From SAR92 clade bacterium (GTDB lineage Bacteria > Pseudomonadota > Gammaproteobacteria > Pseudomonadales > Porticoccaceae): a stretch of 11,141 nucleotides of DNA. The notes beneath the pieces are model-generated. The model saw only the letters and a list, made by a program, of their open reading frames with translations, did not search any database and was not told where the DNA came from. Shown here piece after piece: positions 2 to 11,141 of this stretch (within the stretch, counting starts at the first letter, position 1; every line of letters begins with the position of its first letter). Both the position numbers and the translations under genes were made by a program. Location of the stretch: NCBI GenBank assembly GCA_018607545.1, contig JABBBF010000180.1, forward strand, positions 1 to 11,141. Direction: 5' to 3'.

Positions 2-334
2 CTGGGCAATGATCTTTCTTATGAGGAAGTTTTTAGCCAGCAGCTCAAATACTACCTGGGCAAAAATGATGCGCTACTGCTAGTTAGCTCCAGCGGCAAT
101 TCCCCCAATGTTGTAAAAGCCTGTGAATACGCCAACAGCCAGGGCGTTCCCACTATTGCCTTTGTCGGCTTTAAGGGGGGCAAGCTTCGAGATATTGCTA
201 AACATTGTGTGTGGATACCCATAGAGAATTACGGCATGGCCGAGGACGCCCACCAGAGTCTTATGCATGTGACGACCCAGTACATTATGGCCTATTCCCA
301 TCAGCGTATGGCCGCCGAGGCACAGTGTGACTGA
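2..334 (+). CDS. gmhA: SIS-domain phosphoheptose isomerase, GmhA-like (5' end outside the window)
   Basis: The frame is open from base 2 to TGA at 332-334, giving the last 110 residues of a protein whose N-terminus lies upstream. The visible part is the C-terminal half of a SIS (sugar isomerase) domain. It has the phosphosugar-binding Ser-rich loop LVSSSGNSPNVV (residues 27-38 of the fragment), then a GVPTIAFVGFKGGKL strand-loop, and a late EDAHQSLMH helix. The first His of that helix (84) falls where the catalytic His of E. coli GmhA lies, by my remembered alignment. GmhA enzymes convert sedoheptulose 7-phosphate to D-glycero-D-manno-heptose 7-phosphate in the cytoplasm. The HddA-type kinase and the nucleotidyltransferase downstream support this role over other SIS isomerases. 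The stop overlaps the next gene's GTG start by 8 bp. Without the N-terminal half the exact subfamily is inferred. Confidence 0.82.
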   Translation: MGNDLSYEEVFSQQLKYYLGKNDALLLVSSSGNSPNVVKACEYANSQGVPTIAFVGFKGGKLRDIAKHCVWIPIENYGMAEDAHQSLMHVTTQYIMAYSHQRMAAEAQCD

Positions 335-1382
335 GCACTCTGCTATTGGGGTGGTGGTTATTGGGCGCAATGAGGGTGAGCGTTTAAAGCGCTGCCTGAG
401 TTCGATCCAGAGCCAGCACAGTGGGCCGGTGGTCTATGTGGACTCTGGTTCAACGGATGGTAGTGCCGATTACGCGAGGTCTGTTGGTGTGGATGTTGTT
501 GATCTGGATATCAGTGTTCCCTTTACCATGGCGCGGGGGAGAAATGCCGGCTTCGCCTATCTGATTCAACGTTATGCTGATTGTCAGTTTGTGCAATTTG
601 TCGATGGCGATTGTGAAGTTTCTGACGGTTGGATAGACCTCGGCTTGCAGTTTTTACAGGGTTATCCTGCCTATGGCGCAGTCTGCGGCAATCGCCGAGA
701 GCGGTTTCCCGAGGCGACAATTTATAACCAGCTTATCAATATGGAGTGGCAGGGCAGTGAAGGTGAGGTGAATGCCTGTGGTGGTGATGCTGTCTACTCT
801 GTTGCCAGCTTTAAGGCGGCGGGTTGCTTTAATGAAACCATGATCGCTGGTGAAGAGGCGGATCTCTGTTTACGTATTCGCAGGCAGGGCTTGCGCCTGA
901 TGCGACTGGATAGCCCGATGACGATTCACGATGCCAATATGCAGCATTTCTCGCAGTGGTGGAAACGCTCGGTACGCTGCGGGCACGCCTATGCTCATGG
1001 TTATGATCTGCACAGATTTGACGCTGTAGAGGGCGAAATAAGCTATAAAAAGAAACTCCTGCTAAGCAGTTTGATTTATGGGTTGTTGCTGCCGGTTCTA
1101 CTGATTTTTTGCATTCTGATGGGGATTGGCAGTTCGTTAACTACAGGACAATTTCTGTTGTTTAGCCTGGGGGTTTTGGCGCTCTATCTTCGGGTTGCAT
1201 ACAAGGCTGCAACATCGAAATCAGATAGCATTAACTCAATTGGCCAGCGTGTGCTCTATGGGGCTTTTATTTTGTTGGGCAAGCTTCCTGAGGCTCTCGG
1301 GGTGCTGCATTACTACTCCAACAGGGCACTGGGTAAGACCAGTAAAATTATTGAATACAAAATGGAAAATAAACAGGAATAG
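327..1382 (+). CDS. GT2-family glycosyltransferase with C-terminal membrane segments
   Basis: This 351-residue protein starts with GTG at 327. A GAGG at 317-320 sits six bases upstream, inside the end of the preceding gene. Residues 7-230 form a GT-A fold: the N-terminal nucleotide-binding strand VVVIGRNEGERL (9-20), VYVDSGSTDGS (37-47), the metal-binding DxD as DGD at 93-95, and an acceptor/catalytic-type GEEADLCLR (175-183). Two hydrophobic stretches follow at about 244-268 and 272-292, with a weaker one at 305-325. The enzyme is therefore probably anchored at the inner membrane and builds a lipid-linked glycan on the cytoplasmic side. The donor sugar cannot be told from sequence. Context suggests it adds a sugar, possibly the heptose made by the neighbouring enzymes, to an EPS repeat unit. 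Family assignment is firm; the specific role is inference. Confidence 0.88.
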   Translation: MTEHSAIGVVVIGRNEGERLKRCLSSIQSQHSGPVVYVDSGSTDGSADYARSVGVDVVDLDISVPFTMARGRNAGFAYLIQRYADCQFVQFVDGDCEVSDGWIDLGLQFLQGYPAYGAVCGNRRERFPEATIYNQLINMEWQGSEGEVNACGGDAVYSVASFKAAGCFNETMIAGEEADLCLRIRRQGLRLMRLDSPMTIHDANMQHFSQWWKRSVRCGHAYAHGYDLHRFDAVEGEISYKKKLLLSSLIYGLLLPVLLIFCILMGIGSSLTTGQFLLFSLGVLALYLRVAYKAATSKSDSINSIGQRVLYGAFILLGKLPEALGVLHYYSNRALGKTSKIIEYKMENKQE

Positions 1383-1400
1383 GGAAGCGCTTGTTCGCTA

Positions 1401-1405
1401 AAGGA
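1401..1405 (+). promoter_or_regulatory. Shine-Dalgarno for the GT4 glycosyltransferase
   Basis: AAGGA lies five bases before the ATG at 1411, in the 28-base gap after the GT2 gene. It supports 1411 as the start. Confidence 0.6.
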
Positions 1406-1410
1406 TTAGG

Positions 1411-2694
1411 ATGATTCACTATATAACCAGTACCGGTGTTGGCAATGCCTGGGTTGGCAATGAGTTGATGGCTCTGGCTGACAGAGGTATTGCCTTTCGC
1501 TTGCACTCCCTGCACAGGCCAGCGACAACCTTTTTTAAATCTGATCGTGTTAAGCAGATTGCTGAGCAGACAAACTATATTTATCCGCTGAGCCCCTGGC
1601 ATGTTTTTGCGAGCCTGCTGTTGGCGCCTTTTCTCTTTCCACGTTATTTTTTTCCGGCGCTGTGGAATAGTTTATTTGGACGCAAAGAGTCATTTTCTAT
1701 TCGGCTAAAATCAATTTTGCACTTCTGTGTGGCCTGCGTCTGGGCGCGATCTCTGCGCAAGCAGCAGGTTTCCCATATCCATTCTCAGTGGATTAATTCT
1801 TGTGGCACTGTGGGTATGTACGCCGCCTGGCTGTTAAATAAACCCTTTAGTTTCACCGGTCATGCGGCAGATTTGTTTCGAGAGCGCTGCGCGCTAAAAG
1901 ACAAAATTAAACGTGCAGAGTTTATTGTCTGTATCTCTTCATTTCATCGGGATTTTTATCTCTCCGAAGGTGCTGATCCAAGCCAGTTGATTATTAGTTA
2001 CTGCGGTATAGATACCAGTATGTTTTCGCCCAGTCCAGCGTCTGATTCAGGATCTGAAAGCCAGGGTAATCCCCCAATTAAATTGCTCTCTGCAGCCCGT
2101 CTGGTGGATAAAAAAGGCTTTAAATATCTTATTTCAGCTTGTAAAAGCCTGGCAGATCAGGGCGTGGATTTCAGTTGCACCATTGCTGGTGATGGCCCGC
2201 TTCTAAATGAGCTTGAATACCAAATTCAGCGGCTGCATTTAGGTGGCAGCGTGACGCTAACAGGACGCCCGATTTTGCAGGAGGATATTCCAGGCTTTAT
2301 GCGCCGTGGGGATATCTTCTGTCTGCCCTGTGTCTGGGCTAGTGACGGTGATGTCGATGGCCTGCCGCAGATGTTAATGGAAGCTATGGCCTGTGGTGTT
2401 CCTGTGGTATCGACAAAATTGGTCGGGATTCCCGATCTTGTGGTCGATGGTGAAACTGGATTGCTTGCTGAGCCCAATAGTACAGATGACCTTAGCAGCA
2501 AGCTGGGACAGTTAATCGAAGATCAGCCATTGCGCAGCAGTCTCGCTGCCAATGGTCGGCAGCGCGTTGAGCGACAATTTGATCTATCGACCTGCTTAAA
2601 TCCATTGTTTGAAAAGTTTATGCAAAACCTTGAGCGTGAAAACATTGCACAAAATAACCTTAAAAAAACCAATGCTAAAGGAATTAGCAAATGA
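1411..2694 (+). CDS. GT4-type (GT-B fold) glycosyltransferase, colanic-acid/WcaL-like
   Basis: This is a 427-residue retaining glycosyltransferase of the GT-B fold. The N-terminal acceptor domain (about 1-205) contains VSHIHSQWINSCGTVG (120-135) and FTGHAADLF (148-156), both typical of WcaL/AmsK-like enzymes. The C-terminal donor domain begins at about 223 with KLLSAARLVDKKGF (224-237). It carries TIAGDGPLL (257-265) and the nucleotide-sugar signature DGLPQMLMEAMACGVPVVST (316-335). In the usual E-x7-E motif the first acid is Asp316 and the second Glu324, a substitution I recall in relatives. Two short hydrophobic patches near 65-85 and 100-110 could allow membrane association. Neighbours suggest it adds a sugar in EPS assembly; donor and linkage are unknown. 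The stop codon overlaps the next start by 4 bp (ATGA). The tail after about 405 is polar and poorly conserved-looking. Confidence 0.87.
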   Translation: MIHYITSTGVGNAWVGNELMALADRGIAFRLHSLHRPATTFFKSDRVKQIAEQTNYIYPLSPWHVFASLLLAPFLFPRYFFPALWNSLFGRKESFSIRLKSILHFCVACVWARSLRKQQVSHIHSQWINSCGTVGMYAAWLLNKPFSFTGHAADLFRERCALKDKIKRAEFIVCISSFHRDFYLSEGADPSQLIISYCGIDTSMFSPSPASDSGSESQGNPPIKLLSAARLVDKKGFKYLISACKSLADQGVDFSCTIAGDGPLLNELEYQIQRLHLGGSVTLTGRPILQEDIPGFMRRGDIFCLPCVWASDGDVDGLPQMLMEAMACGVPVVSTKLVGIPDLVVDGETGLLAEPNSTDDLSSKLGQLIEDQPLRSSLAANGRQRVERQFDLSTCLNPLFEKFMQNLERENIAQNNLKKTNAKGISK

Positions 2695-3683
2695 TTATTT
2701 CGCAAACCCCCTACAGGGTGAGTTTTGCCGGCGGTGGCACAGATTTACCGTCGTTCTATCAAAAAGAGATGGGTGCCGTTTTGTCGGTGGGCCTGTCTCA
2801 GCATATGTATGTCACTGTCAGCCCGCGGTTTAAAGCCTCCACTCGTATCGCCTATACGAAAACCGAGATTGCCGACAGCATTGAACAGATCGAGCACACC
2901 ATTGCCCGTGAGGCCCTGCGTATGACCGATCTGGGTAAGCATCTGGAGATTACCACCATTGGCGATGTGCCATCGGGCACAGGCCTGGGATCTAGTAGTA
3001 GCCTGGCGGTGGGTTTGATCAATGCCTTAAATGCCTACAAGGGGCAGATAAGCAGTCCTCAGCAGTTGGCTGAGAAGGCCTGTGAGATAGAGATCGATAT
3101 TCTCAAAAAACCCATTGGAAAACAGGATCAGTACGCGGCTGCATTTGGCTCGCTCAACTATATGCGCTTTAACCCGGATAACAGTGTCGATGTTGAGCCT
3201 GTGCCCTATAAACCTGAAACCCTTCGCGAGTTAGAGTCGCGAACCCTGTTGCTGTATACCGCACAGCAGCGCAGCGCTGACGATATTCTGGTGAAACAGA
3301 GTGCCGGCACCCAACGCCAGGATACATTCTCGGTGCTCAGAGAGATGCGCGATCTTGCCGAAGAGATGCGCAGTGTTATCTCCGGCAGTGGCAATATCGA
3401 CGACTTTGCCGCGTTGTTACATCAGGGCTGGCTGCTTAAAAAATCCCTCGGTTTTGGTATTTCCAACCAACATATTGATGACTGGTATAGCGCAGCGCTA
3501 AAGGCCGGTGCCCAGGGTGGTAAGTTGCTCGGTGCTGGTGGTGGCGGGTTTTTAATGCTGTTGGCTCCAGCGGAAAAACATCAGGCAATTCGGGATGCGC
3601 TGGGCAATCCGCGGGAGATTCCGTTTGAGGTCGATCGCCGGGGTAGTCGAATAATTTTTATCAGTGACAGGTACAAAATTTAA
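2691..3683 (+). CDS. hddA: GHMP kinase, D-glycero-alpha-D-manno-heptose 7-phosphate kinase (HddA-like)
   Basis: This is a 330-residue cytoplasmic sugar kinase. It starts at ATG 2691 with AAGGA at 2678-2682 eight bases upstream. GHMP hallmarks are present in order: RVSFAGGGTDLPSFY (9-23), the ATP-binding motif VPSGTGLGSSSS (93-104), KQDQYAAAFG (144-153) with probable catalytic Asp146, and the C-terminal glycine motif KLLGAGGGGFLML (278-290). AGGGTDLP near the N-terminus and KQDQYA are what I recognise as the HddA / sugar-1-kinase branch, as opposed to galactokinase or mevalonate kinase. HddA phosphorylates D-glycero-D-manno-heptose 7-phosphate at O1 with alpha configuration, the branch leading to GDP-heptose. 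A GmhA-like isomerase upstream and a nucleotidyltransferase downstream support this. An L-fucose or other heptose kinase would be the main alternative. Confidence 0.87.
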   Translation: MIISQTPYRVSFAGGGTDLPSFYQKEMGAVLSVGLSQHMYVTVSPRFKASTRIAYTKTEIADSIEQIEHTIAREALRMTDLGKHLEITTIGDVPSGTGLGSSSSLAVGLINALNAYKGQISSPQQLAEKACEIEIDILKKPIGKQDQYAAAFGSLNYMRFNPDNSVDVEPVPYKPETLRELESRTLLLYTAQQRSADDILVKQSAGTQRQDTFSVLREMRDLAEEMRSVISGSGNIDDFAALLHQGWLLKKSLGFGISNQHIDDWYSAALKAGAQGGKLLGAGGGGFLMLLAPAEKHQAIRDALGNPREIPFEVDRRGSRIIFISDRYKI

Positions 3684-3737
3684 TGCAGTAAAGTATTGGC
3701 GTCATATTTTATCGCTATAAAGGATTTCAAATTCCAT

Positions 3738-3742
3738 GGAGG
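3738..3742 (+). promoter_or_regulatory. Shine-Dalgarno GGAGG that decides the start of the GalE-like gene
   Basis: GGAGG lies five bases before ATG 3748. A second in-frame ATG at 3736 overlaps this SD and has no good SD of its own, so it would only add MEEK in front of the Rossmann strand. The later start is preferred. Confidence 0.75.
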
Positions 3743-3747
3743 AAAAA

Positions 3748-4734
3748 ATGAAAATATTATTAACAGGTGGTGCTGGTTATGTGGGCAGTGCCTGCTTGCG
3801 ACTTTTGAAACAGTCTGGTCATCAGGTTATAGCCTTCGACAATCTGGTTGAAGGTCATGCTAAAGCGGTTGATGGTGCCGATCTGGTTGTCGGTGATATT
3901 CGCGATACAGTGCTGTTGGAAAAAACTCTGCGCGACAATCAGATTGATGCGGTGATGCACTTTGCTGCAGCCACCAACGTCGGTGAGTCGGTGACCAATC
4001 CCAGTTATCATTACGACAATAATATCGGCGGTACTCTGTCGCTGTTAAATGCCATGGTTGCTACTGGTGTTAAAAAAATTCTCTTTTCCAGCACCTGTGC
4101 AACCTACGGTTTAAATCCCTCCAGCCCCATGTCAGAGGATGCCGAGCAGGATCCCTGCAGTCCCTACGCGCGAACCAAGCTGGCGGTTGAATGGATGATC
4201 AGGGATTTTGCCCACACCTATGGCTTGGGCTTTACTATTCTGCGTTATTTTAATGCTGCAGGGGCTTCGAGTGATGGTCGATTTGGTGAATACCACCATC
4301 CGGAGACTCATCTGATTCCACTGGTTTTGCAGGATATCCTCGAAGGTCCAAGAGCCTTAAAAGTATTTGGCAATGACTACCCAACAGCTGATGGCACCTG
4401 CATTCGCGACTATGTGCATATTGAAGATCTGGCCAGTGCTCATCTCTTGGCGATGGAGGCAATTGCTGAAGATACTGCCGAGGTTTACAACATCGGCACA
4501 GGCAATGGTCAGTCGGTGCTGGATATTATTAAAGCCTGTGAGCTGGTATCTGGTCATCAGGTGGAATACAGCGTTGTCGAGCGCAGGCCCGGTGATGCCC
4601 CAGAGTTGGTGGCCGATCCGCGCAAGCTGAAAACCCGCCTGGGCTGGAAACCAAAGTACACAAATATCGAGGATACTGTGCGCACCGCTTGGCTATGGCA
4701 CAAAAATAAACCAGATGGCTATGAGAAGAAATAA
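3748..4734 (+). CDS. galE: UDP-glucose 4-epimerase family protein (GalE-like extended SDR)
   Basis: With the start at 3748 this is a 328-residue extended short-chain dehydrogenase/reductase, close to the usual GalE length of about 338. The start places MKILLTGGAGYVGS directly at the N-terminus, the NAD-binding TGGAGYVGS at 6-14. The active site is SSTCATYG (114-121), with Thr116 where E. coli GalE has Ser124, and YARTK (Tyr140, Lys144). LRYFNAAGA (165-173), DGTCIRDYVHIEDLA (215-229) and RRPGDAPELVAD (279-290) are GalE signatures. The position I align with the substrate-gating Tyr299 of E. coli GalE is Leu287, so a strictly UDP-Glc/Gal specificity is not assured. It probably supplies UDP-Gal, UDP-GalNAc or another 4-epimer for EPS synthesis. 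A 64-base gap separates it from the kinase upstream; the next SDR follows after 12 bases. Confidence 0.85.
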   Translation: MKILLTGGAGYVGSACLRLLKQSGHQVIAFDNLVEGHAKAVDGADLVVGDIRDTVLLEKTLRDNQIDAVMHFAAATNVGESVTNPSYHYDNNIGGTLSLLNAMVATGVKKILFSSTCATYGLNPSSPMSEDAEQDPCSPYARTKLAVEWMIRDFAHTYGLGFTILRYFNAAGASSDGRFGEYHHPETHLIPLVLQDILEGPRALKVFGNDYPTADGTCIRDYVHIEDLASAHLLAMEAIAEDTAEVYNIGTGNGQSVLDIIKACELVSGHQVEYSVVERRPGDAPELVADPRKLKTRLGWKPKYTNIEDTVRTAWLWHKNKPDGYEKK

Positions 4735-4746
4735 CAAGGATCTGAT

Positions 4747-5874
4747 ATGAAAGTATTGGTCACCGGTGGTGCCGGTTTTATTGGCTCCCACACAGTCGAT
4801 AAGCTTATTGAGCTTGGTCACGAGGTGAGAATTCTCGACTGCCTTAAAAAGCCCGTGCATCTCAAGGGGATGCCACCGTGGATTAATAAGCAGGCCGAGT
4901 TTATTCTCGGCGATGTGCGCAATAAAGAGGATCTGCAGAGTGCTATGCAGGGTGTTGACGCCATCTATCATCTGGCGGCCTATCAGGATTATCTGCCAGA
5001 TCTGTCCAATTTCTTTGCTACCAATGCGGTTAGCACTGCATTGCTTTACGAAATTATTGTTGAGCAAAAGTTAGACATTCAAAAAGTGATTGTCGCCAGT
5101 AGCCAGTTTGTTCAGGGCGAGGGGAAATACCGCTGCAGTAATTGCCAAACGAAACATACGCCGCTGATGCGCGTGGAAAAAGATCTTATTAAGCGCAGCT
5201 GGGAGCATCGCTGCCCCAACTGTGAGACGCCGCTGAGTTGGGAGTGGACCGATGAAAATCATATAGCACCGCCCAATGCCTACGCCCTGTCGAAGCACTC
5301 ACAGGAGCAGCAGGCGATAGCCTTTGGTGAGCGCTATGGCATTCCCTCTGTGGCACTTCGCTACTCCATTGTGCAGGGCGCGCGGCAGTCTTTCTACAAT
5401 GCGTATAGTGGCGCCTGTCGTATATTCTGCCTCAACTATTACTTTGCCAAGGCGCCAACGCTCTATGAGGATGGCGGTCAGTTCCGGGATTTCGTCAATA
5501 TTCACGATGTGGTGGATGCCAATGTATTGGCTCTGACCAATAGCAATATGAATGGCAATGTTTTCAACGTGGGTAGCGGCAAGGCCTATACCATCAAACA
5601 GTTCGCCGATATTGTTCGCGATGAAGTTCAGCATCACCACCTGCAGCCCTTACCTGAGGCGATTATTCCCGCTGCCTACCGCTTTGGTGATACGCGCAAT
5701 GCCTGCTCAGATATAAGCAAACTTAAAAGCATGGGCTGGAGTCCTAAGTATTCTCCCATTGACTCGGTGAGAGAATATGTCGACTGGCTTTACGCTCAGG
5801 ATAACGTTGAAGATATTTTGGAATATGCAGAACAAACGATGAAGAAACTGGATGTAGTGAGAAATTCAGCCTAA
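4747..5874 (+). CDS. Extended SDR nucleotide-sugar epimerase/dehydratase with a zinc-ribbon-like insert
   Basis: This 375-residue NAD-dependent SDR starts at ATG 4747, with AAGGA at 4736-4740. The Rossmann motif TGGAGFIGSH is at 6-15, a YHLAAYQDY strand at 74-82, and the catalytic residues are VASSQF (116-121) and YALSK (Tyr179, Lys183). Ser118/119 and Tyr179 are about 60 residues apart, against roughly 25 in ordinary SDRs. The extra segment holds RCSNC (Cys130, Cys133) and RCPNC (Cys156, Cys159), four cysteines spaced like a zinc ribbon. I recall this insert in a branch annotated as dTDP-L-rhamnose 4-epimerase-like or simply NAD-dependent epimerase. The C-terminal part shows QFRDFVNIHDVVDA (245-258) and FNVGSG, as in GalE/RmlB relatives. 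It acts in the cytoplasm on a nucleotide sugar; the substrate is unknown. The final residues after about 350 form a helical tail. Confidence 0.82.
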   Translation: MKVLVTGGAGFIGSHTVDKLIELGHEVRILDCLKKPVHLKGMPPWINKQAEFILGDVRNKEDLQSAMQGVDAIYHLAAYQDYLPDLSNFFATNAVSTALLYEIIVEQKLDIQKVIVASSQFVQGEGKYRCSNCQTKHTPLMRVEKDLIKRSWEHRCPNCETPLSWEWTDENHIAPPNAYALSKHSQEQQAIAFGERYGIPSVALRYSIVQGARQSFYNAYSGACRIFCLNYYFAKAPTLYEDGGQFRDFVNIHDVVDANVLALTNSNMNGNVFNVGSGKAYTIKQFADIVRDEVQHHHLQPLPEAIIPAAYRFGDTRNACSDISKLKSMGWSPKYSPIDSVREYVDWLYAQDNVEDILEYAEQTMKKLDVVRNSA

Positions 5875-5934
5875 CTTATATAAATAGGCATAACTATCTC
5901 CAACAGGCGCTAATAACTGACAATGGATTGTTAA
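5875..5934 (+). other. 60-base intergenic gap before the phosphatase gene
   Basis: This is an AT-rich spacer, one of only two gaps of about 60 bases in the window. It contains TATATAAATA-like sequence near 5878-5887 but no convincing -35/-10 pair and no clear hairpin-plus-T-run. A weak SD-like GGA at 5925-5927 precedes the ATG at 5935. It may hold an internal promoter, but nothing definite is visible. Confidence 0.3.
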
Positions 5935-6561
5935 ATGAATTGGTTTTTTATAAGACACGGACAGATAAATTCCAACCTGAATAAAGTTTATTCGGGCCGC
6001 AGTGATGAACCTCTGAATGCAAAGGGTCTCGAGCAGGCCCATCAAGCGGCTGAGCTGGTTAAGTCCAAGGCTATTGATCGAGTCATTTCCAGTCCGCTGG
6101 CTCGAGCCGGGCAGACGGCAAATATTATAGCCTCGGCAAATGGTCTTAAGGTGACCTTTGATCCGGCATTTAACGAGATGAAATTCGGGGCCTGGGAAGG
6201 TAAAAGTGAAAGCGCTATCCAGCAGCAATATCCACTGGAATGGCGACTGTGGAACACCTCACCCCATCAGCTGAAATTGCCCGGCAGGGAAACGCTTCAG
6301 CAGCTTCAGCAACGTGTTGTTGAACGAATGCACAATATCTCTTTAGAGAGCAGGGACAGAAATAGTAAAGACCAAACTATTTTAGTCGTTACTCATGTGG
6401 CAGTGATACGTGTTGCACTGCTTTATGCACAACAGAGACCGCTCTCGGAATACAAGTCGGTGACTGTTGATAACTGCCAGTTATTTCCGATTTCTCTGAT
6501 AGACCATAATTGGCAAAAGGAGCGTATGCAGTGCAAAGCGTTGCGCGAGGTTGCCCGGTGA
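5935..6561 (+). CDS. Histidine phosphatase (phosphoglycerate-mutase-like); candidate heptose-1,7-bisphosphate 7-phosphatase
   Basis: This 208-residue protein belongs to histidine phosphatase branch 1. The phospho-accepting motif FFIRHGQ is at 4-10 (Arg7, His8), followed by SGRSDEPLNAKG (20-31) and SSPLARAGQTA (52-62, with the phosphate-binding Arg57). The acid/base region EMKFGAWEGK is at 81-90 (Glu81), and the second catalytic His is in VVTHVAVIR (His154). All core catalytic residues are therefore present. Relatives are often annotated as alpha-ribazole phosphatase (CobC) or phosphoglycerate mutase, but no cobalamin gene is nearby. It lies between heptose-pathway genes, and its TGA overlaps the nucleotidyltransferase start by 4 bp. 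The inferred role is removal of the 7-phosphate from heptose 1,7-bisphosphate, the step normally done by the HAD enzyme GmhB. The family is certain; the substrate is inference. Confidence 0.85.
   Translation: MNWFFIRHGQINSNLNKVYSGRSDEPLNAKGLEQAHQAAELVKSKAIDRVISSPLARAGQTANIIASANGLKVTFDPAFNEMKFGAWEGKSESAIQQQYPLEWRLWNTSPHQLKLPGRETLQQLQQRVVERMHNISLESRDRNSKDQTILVVTHVAVIRVALLYAQQRPLSEYKSVTVDNCQLFPISLIDHNWQKERMQCKALREVAR
6547..6550 (+). promoter_or_regulatory. Shine-Dalgarno GAGG for the nucleotidyltransferase GTG start
   Basis: GAGG lies seven bases before GTG 6558, inside the end of the phosphatase gene. It supports GTG 6558 over the in-frame TTG at 6510, which would add 16 residues that resemble no known nucleotidyltransferase N-terminus. 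Confidence 0.6.
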
Positions 6562-7265
6562 AGGCGGTTTTATTGATTGCGGGTCTGGGAACCAGGTTGC
6601 GTCCACTGACCGATTCGATTCCCAAATGCCTGTTGCCGATCAATGGTAAGCCGCTTCTCGGTATATGGTTTGATAAACTGGTTGAAGCCGGTGTGAGCGA
6701 TGTATTAATCAATACCCATTGGCTTGCCGATCAGGTAACCGATTATGTGGAAAAACACTGTCCCCCAGAGCTCACCGTCACCATCTCCTATGAACAGCAA
6801 CTGCTCGGCAGTGCTGGCACCTTGGCGGCCAATCGGGATTTTTTTGGCACCCAGCCGTTTTTTATAATCTATGGCGATAACCTCTCGGATGTCGATCTCG
6901 CCGATCTCTATGCCAGTCATATCAAACACAGGCCAGTTTTGACCCTGGGCACTTTCGAGGCAGAGTTTCCAAAGCGCTGTGGCATTGCCGAGATAGATCA
7001 ACGGCAAATTATTCAGGGTTTTGTCGAGAAGCCGGAAGCACCACTATCCAATCGTGCGGCGGCAGGTATCTATGTTGCCGAGCCAACAATCTTTGATTAT
7101 TTCCCAGAATCAAAAAATTTATCAGTATTGGATTTGGGCTTTGATGTTATCCCCAGGTTGATTGGGAAAATGCGCAACTATTCGATTGATCAGCTGATTG
7201 ATATAGGTACATTTGAAAGCTATCAGAAGGCCAACGGAGAATCACAACAGGGCGCCCATCCTTAG
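6558..7265 (+). CDS. hddC: Sugar-1-phosphate nucleotidyltransferase, probable heptose-1-phosphate guanylyltransferase (HddC-like)
   Basis: Started at GTG 6558, this is a 235-residue NTP-transferase, the usual size for HddC/short mannose-1-phosphate guanylyltransferases without a C-terminal hexapeptide domain. The nucleotide-binding signature AGLGTRLRPLT is at 8-18, followed by PKCLLPINGKPLL (22-34, Lys23). Next come GSAGTLA (84-90), the metal-binding IIYGDNLSD (103-111), GFVEKPE (154-160) and IDIGTFESY (214-222). The GTG places the first strand at residue 1, as expected. It would join heptose 1-phosphate to a nucleotide (GDP in the classic HddC reaction) in the cytoplasm, completing the pathway begun by the isomerase and kinase. 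The family is clear. Choice of sugar and nucleotide rests on context, and a glucose- or mannose-1-phosphate enzyme is possible. Its start overlaps the phosphatase stop (GTGA). Confidence 0.8.
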   Translation: MKAVLLIAGLGTRLRPLTDSIPKCLLPINGKPLLGIWFDKLVEAGVSDVLINTHWLADQVTDYVEKHCPPELTVTISYEQQLLGSAGTLAANRDFFGTQPFFIIYGDNLSDVDLADLYASHIKHRPVLTLGTFEAEFPKRCGIAEIDQRQIIQGFVEKPEAPLSNRAAAGIYVAEPTIFDYFPESKNLSVLDLGFDVIPRLIGKMRNYSIDQLIDIGTFESYQKANGESQQGAHP

Positions 7266-7298
7266 GATAGGATTAAATTCACAAGGCACAGTTCACAT

Positions 7299-7302
7299 GG
7301 AG
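7299..7302 (+). promoter_or_regulatory. Shine-Dalgarno GGAG that decides the start of the WecG-STAS gene
   Basis: GGAG lies seven bases before ATG 7310. The alternative in-frame GTG at 7304 would leave only one base of spacing, so 7310 is preferred. Confidence 0.6.
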
Positions 7303-7309
7303 AGTGTCA

Positions 7310-8461
7310 ATGCAAAAATTGCATGCAGAGGGACGGCTTTTTACTTCCTACACCAAAAGCACCAACCGGCCCTGCTGGAGTTTGCTTGGCCTGCCATTTG
7401 ATCAGGTGGGGCCGGATGAAGCGGTTGAAATTATCGATCAGGCTATCAAGACCAAGCGTAAATGCTTTCTCTCCACACCGAATTTAAACTTTATTGTTCA
7501 GTCTAAAAGCGACGAATCATTCTATGAATCTGTGATTTACAGCGATCTGGTGGTGGCTGATGGTATGCCACTTATCTGGACAGCCAAGCTGCTGGGTATT
7601 CCTCTGCAGAGAAGAGTTGCCGGCTCCTCACTGTTTGAGACCTTACAGAACAAACGCCGAGATAAGTCAATCTCGGTATTTTTCTTTGGCGGGCAGGGCA
7701 GTGCGGCACAGCAAGCAGCGGATAACCTTAACCGCAACTCGGTGGGAATGATTGCCTGTGGCGCATTAAATCCGGGTATGGGCTCTGTTGAGAGCATGAG
7801 TGACAAAGTAATTATCGATCAGATTAATGCTGCCGAGCCGGATTTTCTGGTGGTGGCGCTGGGTGCAAAAAAGGGCCAGCAATGGATTATGAAAAACCGC
7901 GAGCAACTCAACGTCTCTGTTATCAGTCACCTTGGTGCCGTGATTAATTTTGTCGGTGACAATGTTCAGCGCGCGCCATTGCGCTGGCAGAAAATGGGGT
8001 TGGAGTGGGTCTGGCGTATTCTTCAGGAACCATTGCTTTGGAAGCGCTACCTGGTCGATGGTTTATGGTTTTTACGCCTGATGATAACCAGGGTTTTCCC
8101 TCTGGCCATCTACCAAAAAATACTTGGCAAACAAGCTTCTCAGGCCCTGTCTATAAAGATTGTCAATGATATTCCCGGTAGCAATGTCGAGCTTGTGCTG
8201 AGCGGTTCAGCAACCATAGAGCATGGCCGCCTATTGAAATCGACTTGCAGGAAAATACTCGATCAATTGGAGGCATCACCCAACATCTCTATCAATTGCA
8301 GCAAATTGGGCTATATTGATAGTTCTGCGTTGGGCACATTGATGCTTTTAAAGGCCAATATTAAGCGCAGGGGCGGTGAGTTTGGACTGTTTGGAACCTC
8401 ACCGCGAATAAACCGCTTGATGCGCTTACATGGTGTTGAAGAGTTTTTGCTGGAGCAGTAA
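7310..8461 (+). CDS. WecG/TagA/CpsF-family glycosyltransferase fused to a C-terminal STAS domain
   Basis: The protein has 383 residues, while plain WecG/TagA/CpsF enzymes have about 240-260. Residues 24-245 match that GT26 family: LSTPNLNFIV (54-63), VVADGMPLIW (81-90, with the family Asp84), SVFFFGGQGSAA (122-133), LVVALGAKKGQQW (180-192), and the C-terminal block SHLGAVINFVGDNVQRAP (206-223) leading to GLEWVWRILQEP (230-241). These enzymes add ManNAc, ManNAcA or a related sugar to a membrane lipid-linked acceptor. A hydrophobic/amphipathic linker (246-275) follows. Residues 280-383 look like a STAS domain: a beta strand NVELVLSGSATI, a helix, SINCSKLGYIDSSALGTLMLL (327-347) with the DSSALG motif of anti-anti-sigma proteins, and a final strand-helix GEFGLFGTSPRINRLMRLHG. 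Ser338/Ser339 is the candidate phosphorylation site. STAS-mediated control of the transferase is inference. Confidence 0.85.
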   Translation: MQKLHAEGRLFTSYTKSTNRPCWSLLGLPFDQVGPDEAVEIIDQAIKTKRKCFLSTPNLNFIVQSKSDESFYESVIYSDLVVADGMPLIWTAKLLGIPLQRRVAGSSLFETLQNKRRDKSISVFFFGGQGSAAQQAADNLNRNSVGMIACGALNPGMGSVESMSDKVIIDQINAAEPDFLVVALGAKKGQQWIMKNREQLNVSVISHLGAVINFVGDNVQRAPLRWQKMGLEWVWRILQEPLLWKRYLVDGLWFLRLMITRVFPLAIYQKILGKQASQALSIKIVNDIPGSNVELVLSGSATIEHGRLLKSTCRKILDQLEASPNISINCSKLGYIDSSALGTLMLLKANIKRRGGEFGLFGTSPRINRLMRLHGVEEFLLEQ

Positions 8462-10150
8462 ATGGACTTTAAGGATAAAGCGGTTGGCGCTGATAAACAG
8501 CCTGATGGGAGTGGGGATGGGACGGCAAACGGACAGGGACTGGATTTTAAGCAGCTGCTAACTAACAGAGCTTTCCAGTTGTTTTTTGTAGCTCTGGCGC
8601 TCAGCTTTTGGTTGTACTGGGATGGCTTGGCTGAGGCTGTTCTGCGCTGGGAGCTTCAGGAAGAGTATAGCCACGGTTACCTGATTCCCTTGGTATCACT
8701 GTTTATTCTCTGGGAAAAACGCTTCCAAATTGCCTGCAGCTATCAGCATTTTTCCTGGTGGGGCGTGCCGATTATTGTCGTCGCCCTGGTTATCCTGCTG
8801 GTCGGTGAAGTCAGTGCGCTCTATATGCTGATTCACTACTCATTTATTCTCTTATTATTTGGTTTGTCGCTAGCTTTTTTAGGCTCGGCAACCCGCTACA
8901 CGTGGGTTCCTATTGCGCTGCTCGGCTTTGCCGTGCCGCTGCCCTATTTTATTGAAGTTATTCTCACCTCGAAGCTGCAACTTATCTCTTCTCAGTTGGG
9001 CGTTGAGATTATCCGTCTATGTCGTATCCCGGTATTTTTAAGCGGCAATATTATTGATCTCGGCAACTACCAGTTACAGGTTGTCGAGGCATGCAGTGGT
9101 CTGCGCTATCTCTTTCCGCTAATGAGTCTGGGCTTTATCGGTGCTTACCTGTATCAGGCATCTGCCTGGAAGCGCACTGTACTGTTTTTGTCCACAGTGC
9201 CTATCACCATTTTTATGAACAGTGTGCGTATCGCTATCACCGGCCTGCTGGTCGATAACTGGGGCACTGAGATGGCCGAGGGGTTTCTCCATGACTTTGA
9301 AGGCTGGCTGATCTTTATGGCCTGCGGTGGTTTGCTGTTGCTCGAGGTGATATTGATGGAACTATTTACTAGTCGCCAAAGTCTGCGTCAGGCATTTGCT
9401 GTGCCGGTATCTGTCAGTGCCGAGCAATTTTCTAGGAATAACATTAGCGCTCTAAAATTTCCCACAGCTGTCGCTGTCTCTATACCTCTTCTACTTGTGG
9501 CGCTGGTTGCTGTTGGCAGTCTCGAGAATCGTGGAGAGGATTCTACCCTTAAGAACGCCGAACTTGTCAGCTTCCCCCTGAAGCTGGATGAGTGGGTTGG
9601 CATAGATGACAGAATTGAAGCAGATGTGGCGAGAAAGCTCGGGTTCACAGAGTACGTCATGATTAATTATCAGAACCCACAGCATCGCCCGGTTAATTTT
9701 TACGTTGCCTATTACGCCTCCCAGCGCAAAGGGCTTTCGCCCCATTCACCGAAAGTTTGTATCCCTGGGGGTGGCTGGGAAATTGCCAATTTCTCGCGCA
9801 CTAAAGTGGATCAGATGCCGGTCAACCGCGCTTTAATTCGCAAGGGCACTCAGGATCAGATTGTCTATTATTGGTTTGAGGAACGCGGTACACCAGTGGC
9901 CAACGAATATATAAAGAAATGGATGTTATTTAAGGATGCACTCTTTTTAAACCGTACCGACGGTTCTCTTATTAGAGTGACTACACCAGTGATGAGCGAT
10001 GAAACCCTAGCGGATGCAGATCTGCGCGCTCAGGCGTTTATTCGTATTAGCAGAAATAAGCTGTCGCAGCTTTTACCGGCAAGAGTTTTGTTAGAAAAAA
10101 GTGTGCCAGAGAAGAGTCTGCCTGTGAAAATTTTAGAGGGAGCACAATGA
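8462..10150 (+). CDS. Exosortase-EpsI fusion protein
   Basis: This is a 562-residue inner-membrane protein whose ATG directly abuts the preceding TAA. After a polar, Gly/Asp/Lys-rich N-terminal extension (1-27), residues 35-302 form a multi-pass exosortase with about eight hydrophobic segments. EYSHGYLIPL (68-77) is an N-terminal exosortase hallmark. The catalytic residues are present: Cys211 in VVEACSGLRY, Arg256 in MNSVRIAI and His277 in FLHDFEGW. A further transmembrane segment at about 334-352 leads to a periplasmic EpsI domain (about 360-540). This has FYVAYYASQRKG (413-424) and HSPKVCIPGGGWEI (428-441), the typical EpsI Cys/Gly motif. Exosortases are thought to cleave PEP-CTERM-type sorting tails, and EpsI accompanies them in EPS loci. 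The fused form resembles exosortase D-type proteins, but that subtype is a recollection. No substrate with a sorting tail lies in the window. Confidence 0.9.
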   Translation: MDFKDKAVGADKQPDGSGDGTANGQGLDFKQLLTNRAFQLFFVALALSFWLYWDGLAEAVLRWELQEEYSHGYLIPLVSLFILWEKRFQIACSYQHFSWWGVPIIVVALVILLVGEVSALYMLIHYSFILLLFGLSLAFLGSATRYTWVPIALLGFAVPLPYFIEVILTSKLQLISSQLGVEIIRLCRIPVFLSGNIIDLGNYQLQVVEACSGLRYLFPLMSLGFIGAYLYQASAWKRTVLFLSTVPITIFMNSVRIAITGLLVDNWGTEMAEGFLHDFEGWLIFMACGGLLLLEVILMELFTSRQSLRQAFAVPVSVSAEQFSRNNISALKFPTAVAVSIPLLLVALVAVGSLENRGEDSTLKNAELVSFPLKLDEWVGIDDRIEADVARKLGFTEYVMINYQNPQHRPVNFYVAYYASQRKGLSPHSPKVCIPGGGWEIANFSRTKVDQMPVNRALIRKGTQDQIVYYWFEERGTPVANEYIKKWMLFKDALFLNRTDGSLIRVTTPVMSDETLADADLRAQAFIRISRNKLSQLLPARVLLEKSVPEKSLPVKILEGAQ

Positions 10151-11141
10151 GCATATCAACCATGAAGGTGTTTTTAAGGTATTTAATTTTAAGTCTTTTT
10201 GTACTGTCGGTATCCGGCTGCAGTGGATCGAAAGAGGAGGCTGCCAACAAATACTTGAACAGTGGCATTGAATTTTTTCAACAGGGCGATCTATCCAAGG
10301 CCAGCGTTGAATTGCGCAATGCCCTGCAAATTGATCCCAAGTTGGCCAATGCTTACTACTATCTGGCTTTGATCTCAGAGGAAAATAAAAACTGGAAATC
10401 ACTGTATAAAAATCTCTCCAAAGTCGAGCAGCTGGATGCCAACCATGTGCAGGCAAAAATAAAATTGGCCTATTTAATGCTGTTGGCCAAACAGGCTGAT
10501 ACAGCGTTGGAAAAGGCGGATTTTATTCTCGCGCTGGATAAAGACAACGCCGAAGCATTTGCCATTAAAGCCTCAGCCTATCTGCAAAAAGAGCTCTATG
10601 ATGTGGCTATGGAATATATCAATAAGGCAATTTCACAGGACAGTGAGTCTGCTGAAATTGCCTCGATAAAGGTTTCCATCATGCACCGGCAGGGAGATAC
10701 CGATGCCGCCCTGGCGCTGCTGACAGATATTATTGATCGTGAGCAGGATAGTTTGCAGCTACTTCTTCTGCGTGCCGAAATTAACCAGGAAATTAATGAT
10801 ATTCAGGCGATGGAGGCCGACTATCGCACACTAATTAAAAATAACCCCGAGGAAAAAGGTTTCTATTTAAAGTTAGCCAGGCTATTGCATGATACTGCCA
10901 GAGTTGATGCGGCTATCGGGGTGCTTAAGGATTATCTAAAGCGAAATGCGAAAGATACCCAGGTGCGTATCGCCATTATTGAAATTCTCTCCAGGCAAGA
11001 TGCGGATGCGGGAGAAGAGCTGTTAAATCAGTATATTACCAGAGACGCTGCCAATGCCGAGTTGCGGTTTTATCGGATTGACAGATTGATGGCGTCGGGT
11101 GATCAGGCTCAGGCATTGGTTGAATTGGAGGAGATTAGCGA
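10147..11141 (+). CDS. TPR-repeat lipoprotein, PEP-CTERM/exosortase-system PrsT-like (3' end outside the window)
   Basis: The frame is open from ATG 10147 to the right edge (331 residues seen). The start overlaps the exosortase stop by 4 bp (ATGA) and has GGAG at 10139-10142. A lipoprotein signal peptide is clear: basic start MKVFLR (6-11), a hydrophobic core, and the lipobox VSGC with Cys25 as the lipidated residue. A second ATG at 10162 would give a more typical signal but has no SD. From about residue 32 onward come tandem 34-residue tetratricopeptide repeats, with A/Y/F-rich helix pairs and 'xxDPxxAxAY' turns (e.g. QIDPKLANAY, 61-70). The protein probably sits on the outer membrane or the periplasmic face. 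TPR lipoproteins beside exosortases (about 900 residues in the PrsT family) are proposed to help EPS or sorted-protein export. Location and context support that assignment; full length is unseen. Confidence 0.85.
   Translation, partial: MSISTMKVFLRYLILSLFVLSVSGCSGSKEEAANKYLNSGIEFFQQGDLSKASVELRNALQIDPKLANAYYYLALISEENKNWKSLYKNLSKVEQLDANHVQAKIKLAYLMLLAKQADTALEKADFILALDKDNAEAFAIKASAYLQKELYDVAMEYINKAISQDSESAEIASIKVSIMHRQGDTDAALALLTDIIDREQDSLQLLLLRAEINQEINDIQAMEADYRTLIKNNPEEKGFYLKLARLLHDTARVDAAIGVLKDYLKRNAKDTQVRIAIIEILSRQDADAGEELLNQYITRDAANAELRFYRIDRLMASGDQAQALVELEEIS

Follow-up and report, generated by a model that had tools for sequence, protein, structure and literature searches.

The window, the whole stretch of 11,141 nucleotides that was analysed, encodes a genuine fusion of a GT26 glycosyltransferase with a STAS domain. 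The enzyme probably helps to start a surface-sugar chain. Its closest relatives form a group that we call clade A, and a second group, clade B, carries two STAS domains behind the GT26 part. The recurrence of the fusion in many metagenomes, together with the kinase-phosphatase switch encoded beside its clade-B form, suggests that some bacteria steer the building of their sugar coat directly at the enzyme. On balance we lean towards control of the GT26 enzyme through docking of a partner on its STAS module.

The fusion protein and its pocket

The fusion gene of clade A lies on the forward strand at 7310..8461, as seen in the open reading frame, Pfam, AlphaFold2 and Foldseek results. The fusion is read in a single uninterrupted frame, as had been claimed from the letters of the DNA, with an ATG at 7310 and a TAA at 8461. 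The product has 383 residues, a length shared by many close relatives among the matches listed in the protein search. Pfam places Glyco_tran_WecG at residues 78-247 (160.1 bits against a cut-off of 27.4), STAS_2 at residues 295-376 (38.6 against 29.2) and STAS at residues 314-379 (38.1 against 22.6). The protein belongs to GT26 by PF03808, which is above its cut-off, and by its TagA fold, and to the STAS proteins by PF13466 and PF01740, both above their curated cut-offs, and by a TMt of 0.89 to RsbV. Its score against the anti-sigma factor antagonist model TIGR00377 is 41.4 bits, below the curated cut-off of 53.45.

The AlphaFold2 model, for which an alignment of 49 rows was the input, has a mean pLDDT of 88.4 and a pTM of 0.86. 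In this model residues 281-381 (8150..8452, forward strand) form the secondary-structure elements of a STAS domain, and Pfam and Foldseek agree, which bears out the domain that the sequence-only reading had proposed. Foldseek matched the STAS part to RsbV in the RsbV/RsbW complex (6m36_B, TMt 0.89), to SpoIIAA and to MlaB, and the glycosyltransferase part to TarA/TagA with a TMt of about 0.9. The model refines the earlier picture in one respect. A helix of 35 residues (241-275, 8030..8134, forward strand), long and hydrophobic by AlphaFold2 secondary structure and hydropathy, sits between the STAS domain and the GT26 core, which takes up residues 20-240 (7367..8029, forward strand) by Pfam and by alignment to the TagA chain. 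The STAS fold of the model rules out residues 281-383 as an ordinary WecG membrane tail; judging by the same model, helix 241-275 may well be the WecG-type membrane tail.

By alignment to TagA, the pocket residues Thr37, Asn39, Asp65 and Arg83 of that enzyme are T56, N58, D84 and R102 in the window protein. Among the clade-A rows in the matches listed, T56, N58 and D84 are present in 234/234 and R102 in 231/234; these residue counts cover proteins longer than 330 aa only (234 of 240). Other positions of the pocket have changed. Gly189-Gln190 stand where TagA has Gln167-Glu168, within the motif LGAKKGQQW at residues 184-192 (7859..7885, forward strand; alignment to TagA and clade-A rows), and Leu243 (codon 8036..8038, forward strand; alignment to TagA) stands at the place of TagA Arg221. 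Thus, of the three residues typical of TagA (Gln167, Glu168 and Arg221), the window protein has none. A GAxKGQxW-type pattern occurs in 240/240 clade-A rows among the matches listed if the alternatives G/S, A/G, K/R, G/A and Q/H are admitted, and in 219/240 in its strict form, and leucine at the Arg221 place in 234/234; with alternatives allowed, the pattern was found in 0/69 unfused GT26 proteins and 0/121 clade-B rows. Clade B retains the usual PKQE motif. For TagA, stabilisation of the leaving group has been proposed as the role of Arg221 (PMC6493773, in excerpt).

To judge from these alignments, clade A is a divergent GT26 subfamily and no typical TagA. The variant pocket suggests another donor, or another mode of leaving-group assistance, and the loss of Arg221 together with Gln167-Glu168 could mean that the transferase activity has been changed or even lost. 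Clade A thereby stands out as a large branch of GT26 in which the active site has changed, and annotation pipelines often give its members the name N-acetylmannosaminyltransferase (names among the matches listed).

Recurrence and descent of the fusion

A STAS domain is present in 350/360 rows listed from three protein searches, each of which counts the best 120 matches (of 2977, 637 and 1704). With the window protein as the query, and counted among the matches, a STAS family is assigned to 117 of the best 120 of 2977 matches, at identities as low as 48%, and the three rows without it are 238-314 aa long. Because of this count the likeness to STAS is no matter of chance; a chance or truncated likeness is ruled out by the profile scores, the fold and the recurrence together. 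A related Pelagibacterium plasmid protein as the query gave STAS in 113 of the best 120 (of 637), its own record being among the seven rows without STAS, and a GT26-STAS-STAS protein gave it in 120/120 of the best 120 (of 1704). The clade-A proteins are mostly about 360-440 aa long and those of clade B about 520 aa. Eight of the 120 listed rows of the last search (P0141, P0142, P0145, P0151, P0152, P0168, P0171 and P0172; 684-724 aa) carry an extra PF00293 (NUDIX) domain on GT26-STAS-STAS. The JGI product name 'WecB/TagA/CpsF family protein/anti-anti-sigma factor' on 4 of the best 120 GT26-STAS-STAS rows indicates that the fusion had already been seen by automatic annotation.

It had been held that such a coupling would be unusual. 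This is true of the literature searched and less so of nature: within the protein collection the fusion turns up again and again, though few of the sampled genomes have it. A clade-A GT26 gene was found in 4/194 sampled genomes of the order of the window relatives, the centre genome G002 counted; STAS was read in G002 (a broken gene), G384 and G510 (below cut-off), and not in G444. Among 398 genomes sampled across the phylum, clade-A GT26 at E up to 1e-40 was found in the centre genome only, and the other four matches are unfused GT26 proteins. The clade-B gene is present in 5/24 genomes of one taxonomic order (centre genome counted); as the five share an order, they are not independent events. 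A search of plasmids with the clade-B protein P0161 gave 0 records covering 80% of it. The Deinococcus plasmid match H2 was ruled out as a fusion because its second portion overlies the next gene. In one metagenome-assembled genome (L006, 9968-11151) the fusion gene is split into two overlapping frames, with GT26 and STAS apart, either through a real break or through a sequencing error.

The GT26 tree (130 rows) was built from 72 of the 360 listed proteins and 6 locus proteins, with 17 of the 23 mostly enterobacterial loci L025-L047 left out. Clade A (53 rows) has a support of 100/100 and clade B (25 rows) of 100/99. The two are non-sister in the best tree, and a tree in which they are held together is not rejected (p-AU 0.332). 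Profile comparison ties the STAS domains of clades A and B to each other with 98.6 and 97.8% probability, and the long helix stands ahead of STAS in the models of both; the clade-B prediction is a confident one (pLDDT 88.9). These comparisons are compatible with one fusion event as well as with two.

The STAS domain is under purifying selection, the constraint being somewhat weaker than on the GT26 enzyme. The dN/dS of the GT26 part is 0.075 between the window and L001 and 0.045 between the window and L002, and for STAS the same pairs gave 0.20 and 0.06. Against L004, STAS gave 0.25, and against L003, GT26 gave 0.04 with dS near-saturated; the remaining comparisons with L003, L004 and L005 were saturated.

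Neighbourhoods, the serine and the switch genes

Directly behind the fusion gene lies the gene of exosortase XrtD with a C-terminal EpsI/DUF3485 part (8462..10150, forward strand; TIGR04152, 528.5 bits against a cut-off of 400). Its ATG directly abuts the TAA of the fusion gene, and this order is repeated in relatives. A PrsT-like TPR lipoprotein gene follows at 10147..11141 on the same strand (TIGR02917, 97.7 bits, below the cut-off of 312.2) and runs off the window. Upstream, at 327..7265 on the forward strand, profile matches mark genes of polysaccharide synthesis: GT2, GT4, GHMP sugar kinase, GalE, SDR epimerase, histidine phosphatase and sugar-1-P nucleotidyltransferase. The SDR epimerase (4747-5874) has an inserted CxxC...CxxC segment at residues of about 127-167, whose matches to zinc ribbons are weak (E of 0.017 or more). 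A SIS-type protein end at 2-334, whose full-length relative in L001 matches SIS_2, an HddA-like GHMP kinase at 2691-3683 (159.8 bits against a cut-off of 600), the histidine phosphatase at 5935-6561 (alpha-ribazole phosphatase model, 156.6 against 162.9) and an HddC-like nucleotidyltransferase at 6558-7265 (80.5 against 300) together look like a GDP-heptose-type pathway. Such a pathway is expected to contain a HAD phosphatase, and the histidine phosphatase would fill that slot.

The earlier suggestion to look for the architecture beside exosortase genes was borne out. XrtD, identified in the relatives by BLAST to the gene of the window, adjoins in 9/11 clade-A loci, the window included and L099, which has no STAS score, among the nine; the XrtD piece at the contig end of L101 reaches 310.7 bits, below the cut-off. 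No XrtD was found in L088 and L100 within the stretches examined. The STAS domain passes a Pfam cut-off in L100, L004 and L005 and falls below it in L088 and L101. In L099 (7961-9028) the clade-A GT26 gene adjoining XrtD has a tail without a STAS match, so that STAS has been lost, decayed or replaced there. From these three loci it follows that a decayed tail is tolerated in some members. Ten genes around the fusion in L001 and L004, scanned with Pfam, were identified as GT2, SIS, sulfotransferase, LuxR-type response regulator, TonB receptor, ABC-type binding protein and histidine kinases; PP2C was not found among them, one gene being without any match.

It could be thought that the STAS domain has no part in regulation and is purely structural, serving to keep together the long helix, a dimer or an assembly with a neighbour protein such as XrtD or a component of the export machinery. 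The frequent pairing with XrtD would suit this, as would the retention of the fold in clade A while the phospho-site drifts (see below) and the Foldseek match to MlaB, a STAS protein that is a fixed subunit of an ABC transporter. However, L088 and L100 lack XrtD in the stretch examined, and none was found in the six clade-B loci examined (two of them shorter than 4 kb), where most rows carry the canonical serine and where, in four of the loci, switch genes stand in place of XrtD. We consider a purely structural role improbable.

A look for a kinase or phosphatase gene near the fusion had also been proposed. In the clade of the window, genes for PP2C phosphatase or RsbW-like kinase were found in 0/11 loci, the window included (stretches of 8.6-31 kb, some one-sided; the scan profiles drew on seven PP2C and six kinase sequences), and in clade B both are present in 4/6 loci. 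In L102, L166, L167 and L168 the genes for GT26-STAS-STAS, a receiver-PP2C protein and an RsbW-like kinase stand in a row. In L165 the contig stops 176 residues into a gene whose product matches the receiver-PP2C protein, and the PP2C part of that gene is therefore unseen. In L103, with decayed motifs, neither PP2C nor an RsbW-like kinase was found in the locus. The clade-B-type protein of L103 (7939-9507), whose STAS motifs have decayed, comes from a genome of the order of the window relatives, and in place of PP2C and the RsbW-like kinase its locus has a receiver-sigma54 activator together with a hybrid histidine kinase. The L166 kinase is above the cut-off for HATPase_c_2 and resembles SpoIIAB/RsbW below curated cut-offs (TIGR01925, 61.7 against 135); a PhnD-like binding protein and a hybrid histidine kinase are encoded directly upstream.

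The motif D337-S338-S339-A340-L341-G342 (8318..8335, forward strand) was found by sequence and row alignment where the sequence-only reading had put it. Its place corresponds to that of the regulatory phosphoserine of RsbV/SpoIIAA, and the alignment region fits this equivalence. Of the control by phosphorylation suggested at the outset, the serine that it would need is kept in the nearest kin and not across the clade. Ser338 is kept in 45/45 of the closest full-length rows among the matches listed, the window included, and in clade A as a whole only 99/234 rows listed have Ser, with Thr in a further 5/234. The gamma-branch has Ser in 89/115 rows listed and otherwise Gly or Ala, and the alpha-branch in 10/119, Ala being the commonest. 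On the FastTree tree used, 18 changes of state between Ser and non-Ser are required. With a residue as patchy as this, a Ser-based switch cannot be the function common to the whole of clade A. The fused STAS of L100 has Cys at the Ser place, and a free STAS protein with FIDSSALG is encoded 2.6 kb downstream of that fusion (13270-13623), in a locus with a sugar transferase. Among the clade-B rows listed (proteins shorter than 600 aa only, 112 of 120), Ser is present in 102/112 terminal and 97/112 first STAS domains. A Ser-based switch may well be the shared function of clade B, in which phospho-control is likely; the most likely STAS partner there is the product of the adjoining RsbW-like kinase gene, with the receiver-PP2C phosphatase resetting it.

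Six genomes of window relatives were searched for switch genes elsewhere. HATPase_c_2 gave 13 matches, all in open frames of 429-968 aa, with no RsbW-sized kinase among them; the one match scanned was PhoR-like. The controls of this search were positive in 12/14 genomes, B. subtilis included, and such absences are soft because most of the assemblies are drafts. A strong SpoIIE-type PP2C match was found in 4/6 genomes, and a STAS match adjoins the PP2C in each of the four (two of four scanned). The idea of assigning the PP2C to the window protein by elimination was dropped, there being a STAS match beside each PP2C. A PP2C protein and an adjacent 161-aa STAS protein are encoded in L150 at 5291-7851 (G001), with an MlaA lipoprotein gene next; L151 at 4994-6699 (G002) has the same pair with a STAS protein of 173 aa, and a PP2C with an adjoining STAS match was also placed in G003 and G004.

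A true phospho-partner-switch could nonetheless operate in the lineage of the window, with Ser338 phosphorylated by a kinase encoded elsewhere, a PP2C reversing this, and glycosyl transfer being switched as a result. The invariant serine of the closest relatives, the PP2C genes of the four genomes and the complete wiring of clade B all speak for it. Against it, each of those PP2C genes has a STAS match of its own adjoining, the kinase search gave long frames only (in mostly draft assemblies), and the eleven loci have no such gene near the fusion. We hold it to be rather unlikely, though better placed than a structural role.

Proposed control at the enzyme and its relation to known systems

The docking-based control that we favour may be outlined as follows. 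The two domains with their folds, the recurrence, the altered pocket and the gene neighbourhoods were observed, whereas the sugar chemistry, membrane binding, partner binding and direction of control are all steps that we infer. The window protein would be a GT26 glycosyltransferase that associates with the membrane and belongs to an exopolysaccharide/XrtD locus. Its probable reaction is the transfer of a second sugar onto an undecaprenyl-PP-linked sugar by way of its variant donor pocket. The C-terminal STAS would be a protein-docking regulatory module behind the enzyme's own membrane appendage. A putative partner bound there could set the share of lipid-linked sugar committed to this polymer, as HfiA does on HfsJ. 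In clade B the partner would be the neighbouring RsbW-like kinase, with the receiver-PP2C phosphatase acting as the resetting enzyme. Since the phospho-site is not generally kept in clade A, the function that its members share is more likely to be docking as such, whether or not phosphorylation takes part in it.

A wider form of this reading, to which we give an even chance, is that GT26-STAS enzymes are a direct output of partner switches, with the wiring intact in clade B and with clade A as a branch that has a remodelled active site, keeps the STAS port and, in the lineage of the window, keeps the phospho-site. A histidine kinase would signal to the receiver-PP2C phosphatase, the PP2C and the RsbW-like kinase would set the state of the enzyme-borne STAS, and this state would open or close the committed step of a lipid-linked polysaccharide without a step of transcription. 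Binding of a small ligand, a nucleotide or a lipid, by the STAS domain with allosteric tuning of the enzyme is very improbable in our estimate; in its favour, GTP binding, lesser binding of ATP and weak NTPase activity are reported for SpoIIAA (PMC8256260, in excerpt).

No description of a GT26-STAS fusion was found in the open-licence PMC literature searched, as represented by titles and the starts of abstracts, and the word STAS is absent from the exosortase papers PMC1569441 and PMC11340318. The nearest published statement found is a sentence on Anabaena All4160 in the excerpts of PMC8256260. All4160 is likewise a glycosyltransferase with a STAS domain, and heterocyst envelope polysaccharide depends on it (PMC4390870, in excerpt), but its STAS is N-terminal.

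With TagA/TarA and WecG the window protein shares the fold of its front part, the pocket residues Thr37, Asn39, Asp65 and Arg83 and a C-terminal hydrophobic stretch; it differs in that clade A has Gln167-Glu168 and Arg221 replaced and a STAS domain of about 100 residues added. The C-terminal appendage of TagA is a membrane tether and is required for activity (excerpts of PMC6493773), and GT26 enzymes are described as carrying out gate-keeping or committed steps on undecaprenyl-PP sugars (excerpts of PMC3900383 and PMC11340318). In the Caulobacter holdfast system a WecG-type enzyme, HfsJ, is controlled after translation through its C-terminus, which HfiA binds and thereby inhibits HfsJ. The parallel is one of arrangement, as the regulator is not homologous: tagged HfsJ is 33 kDa with no mention of STAS in the passages of PMC3900383 at hand, and HfiA is a separate protein of 68 residues. 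As HfiA binds the C-terminus of HfsJ and TagA needs its appendage, the STAS domain is attached where a regulator could act.

The RsbV/SpoIIAA proteins of RsbU-RsbV-RsbW switches share the STAS fold and, in the branch of the window, the D-S-S motif. In contrast to them, the STAS domain here is built into an enzyme, the clade-A stretches examined gave neither a kinase nor a phosphatase gene of the switch in its vicinity, and TIGR00377 is below cut-off. Partner switches are known mainly as steering sigma factors (PMC8256260, in excerpt). A recurring STAS-bearing enzyme, with a phosphatase and a kinase next door in clade B, offers them a concrete and testable class of target, the GT26 committed step. 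The SypA/SypE pair of Vibrio fischeri is also a polysaccharide system with a STAS protein controlled by Ser phosphorylation, which acts below transcription (excerpts of PMC4517449 and PMC10120452). SypA is a free protein of 105 residues, whereas here STAS is covalently joined to a glycosyltransferase. SypA promotes biofilm below the level of transcription, and its target is called unknown in the excerpts of PMC10120452 and PMC8256260; GT26-STAS enzymes offer a class in which such a target could be sought.
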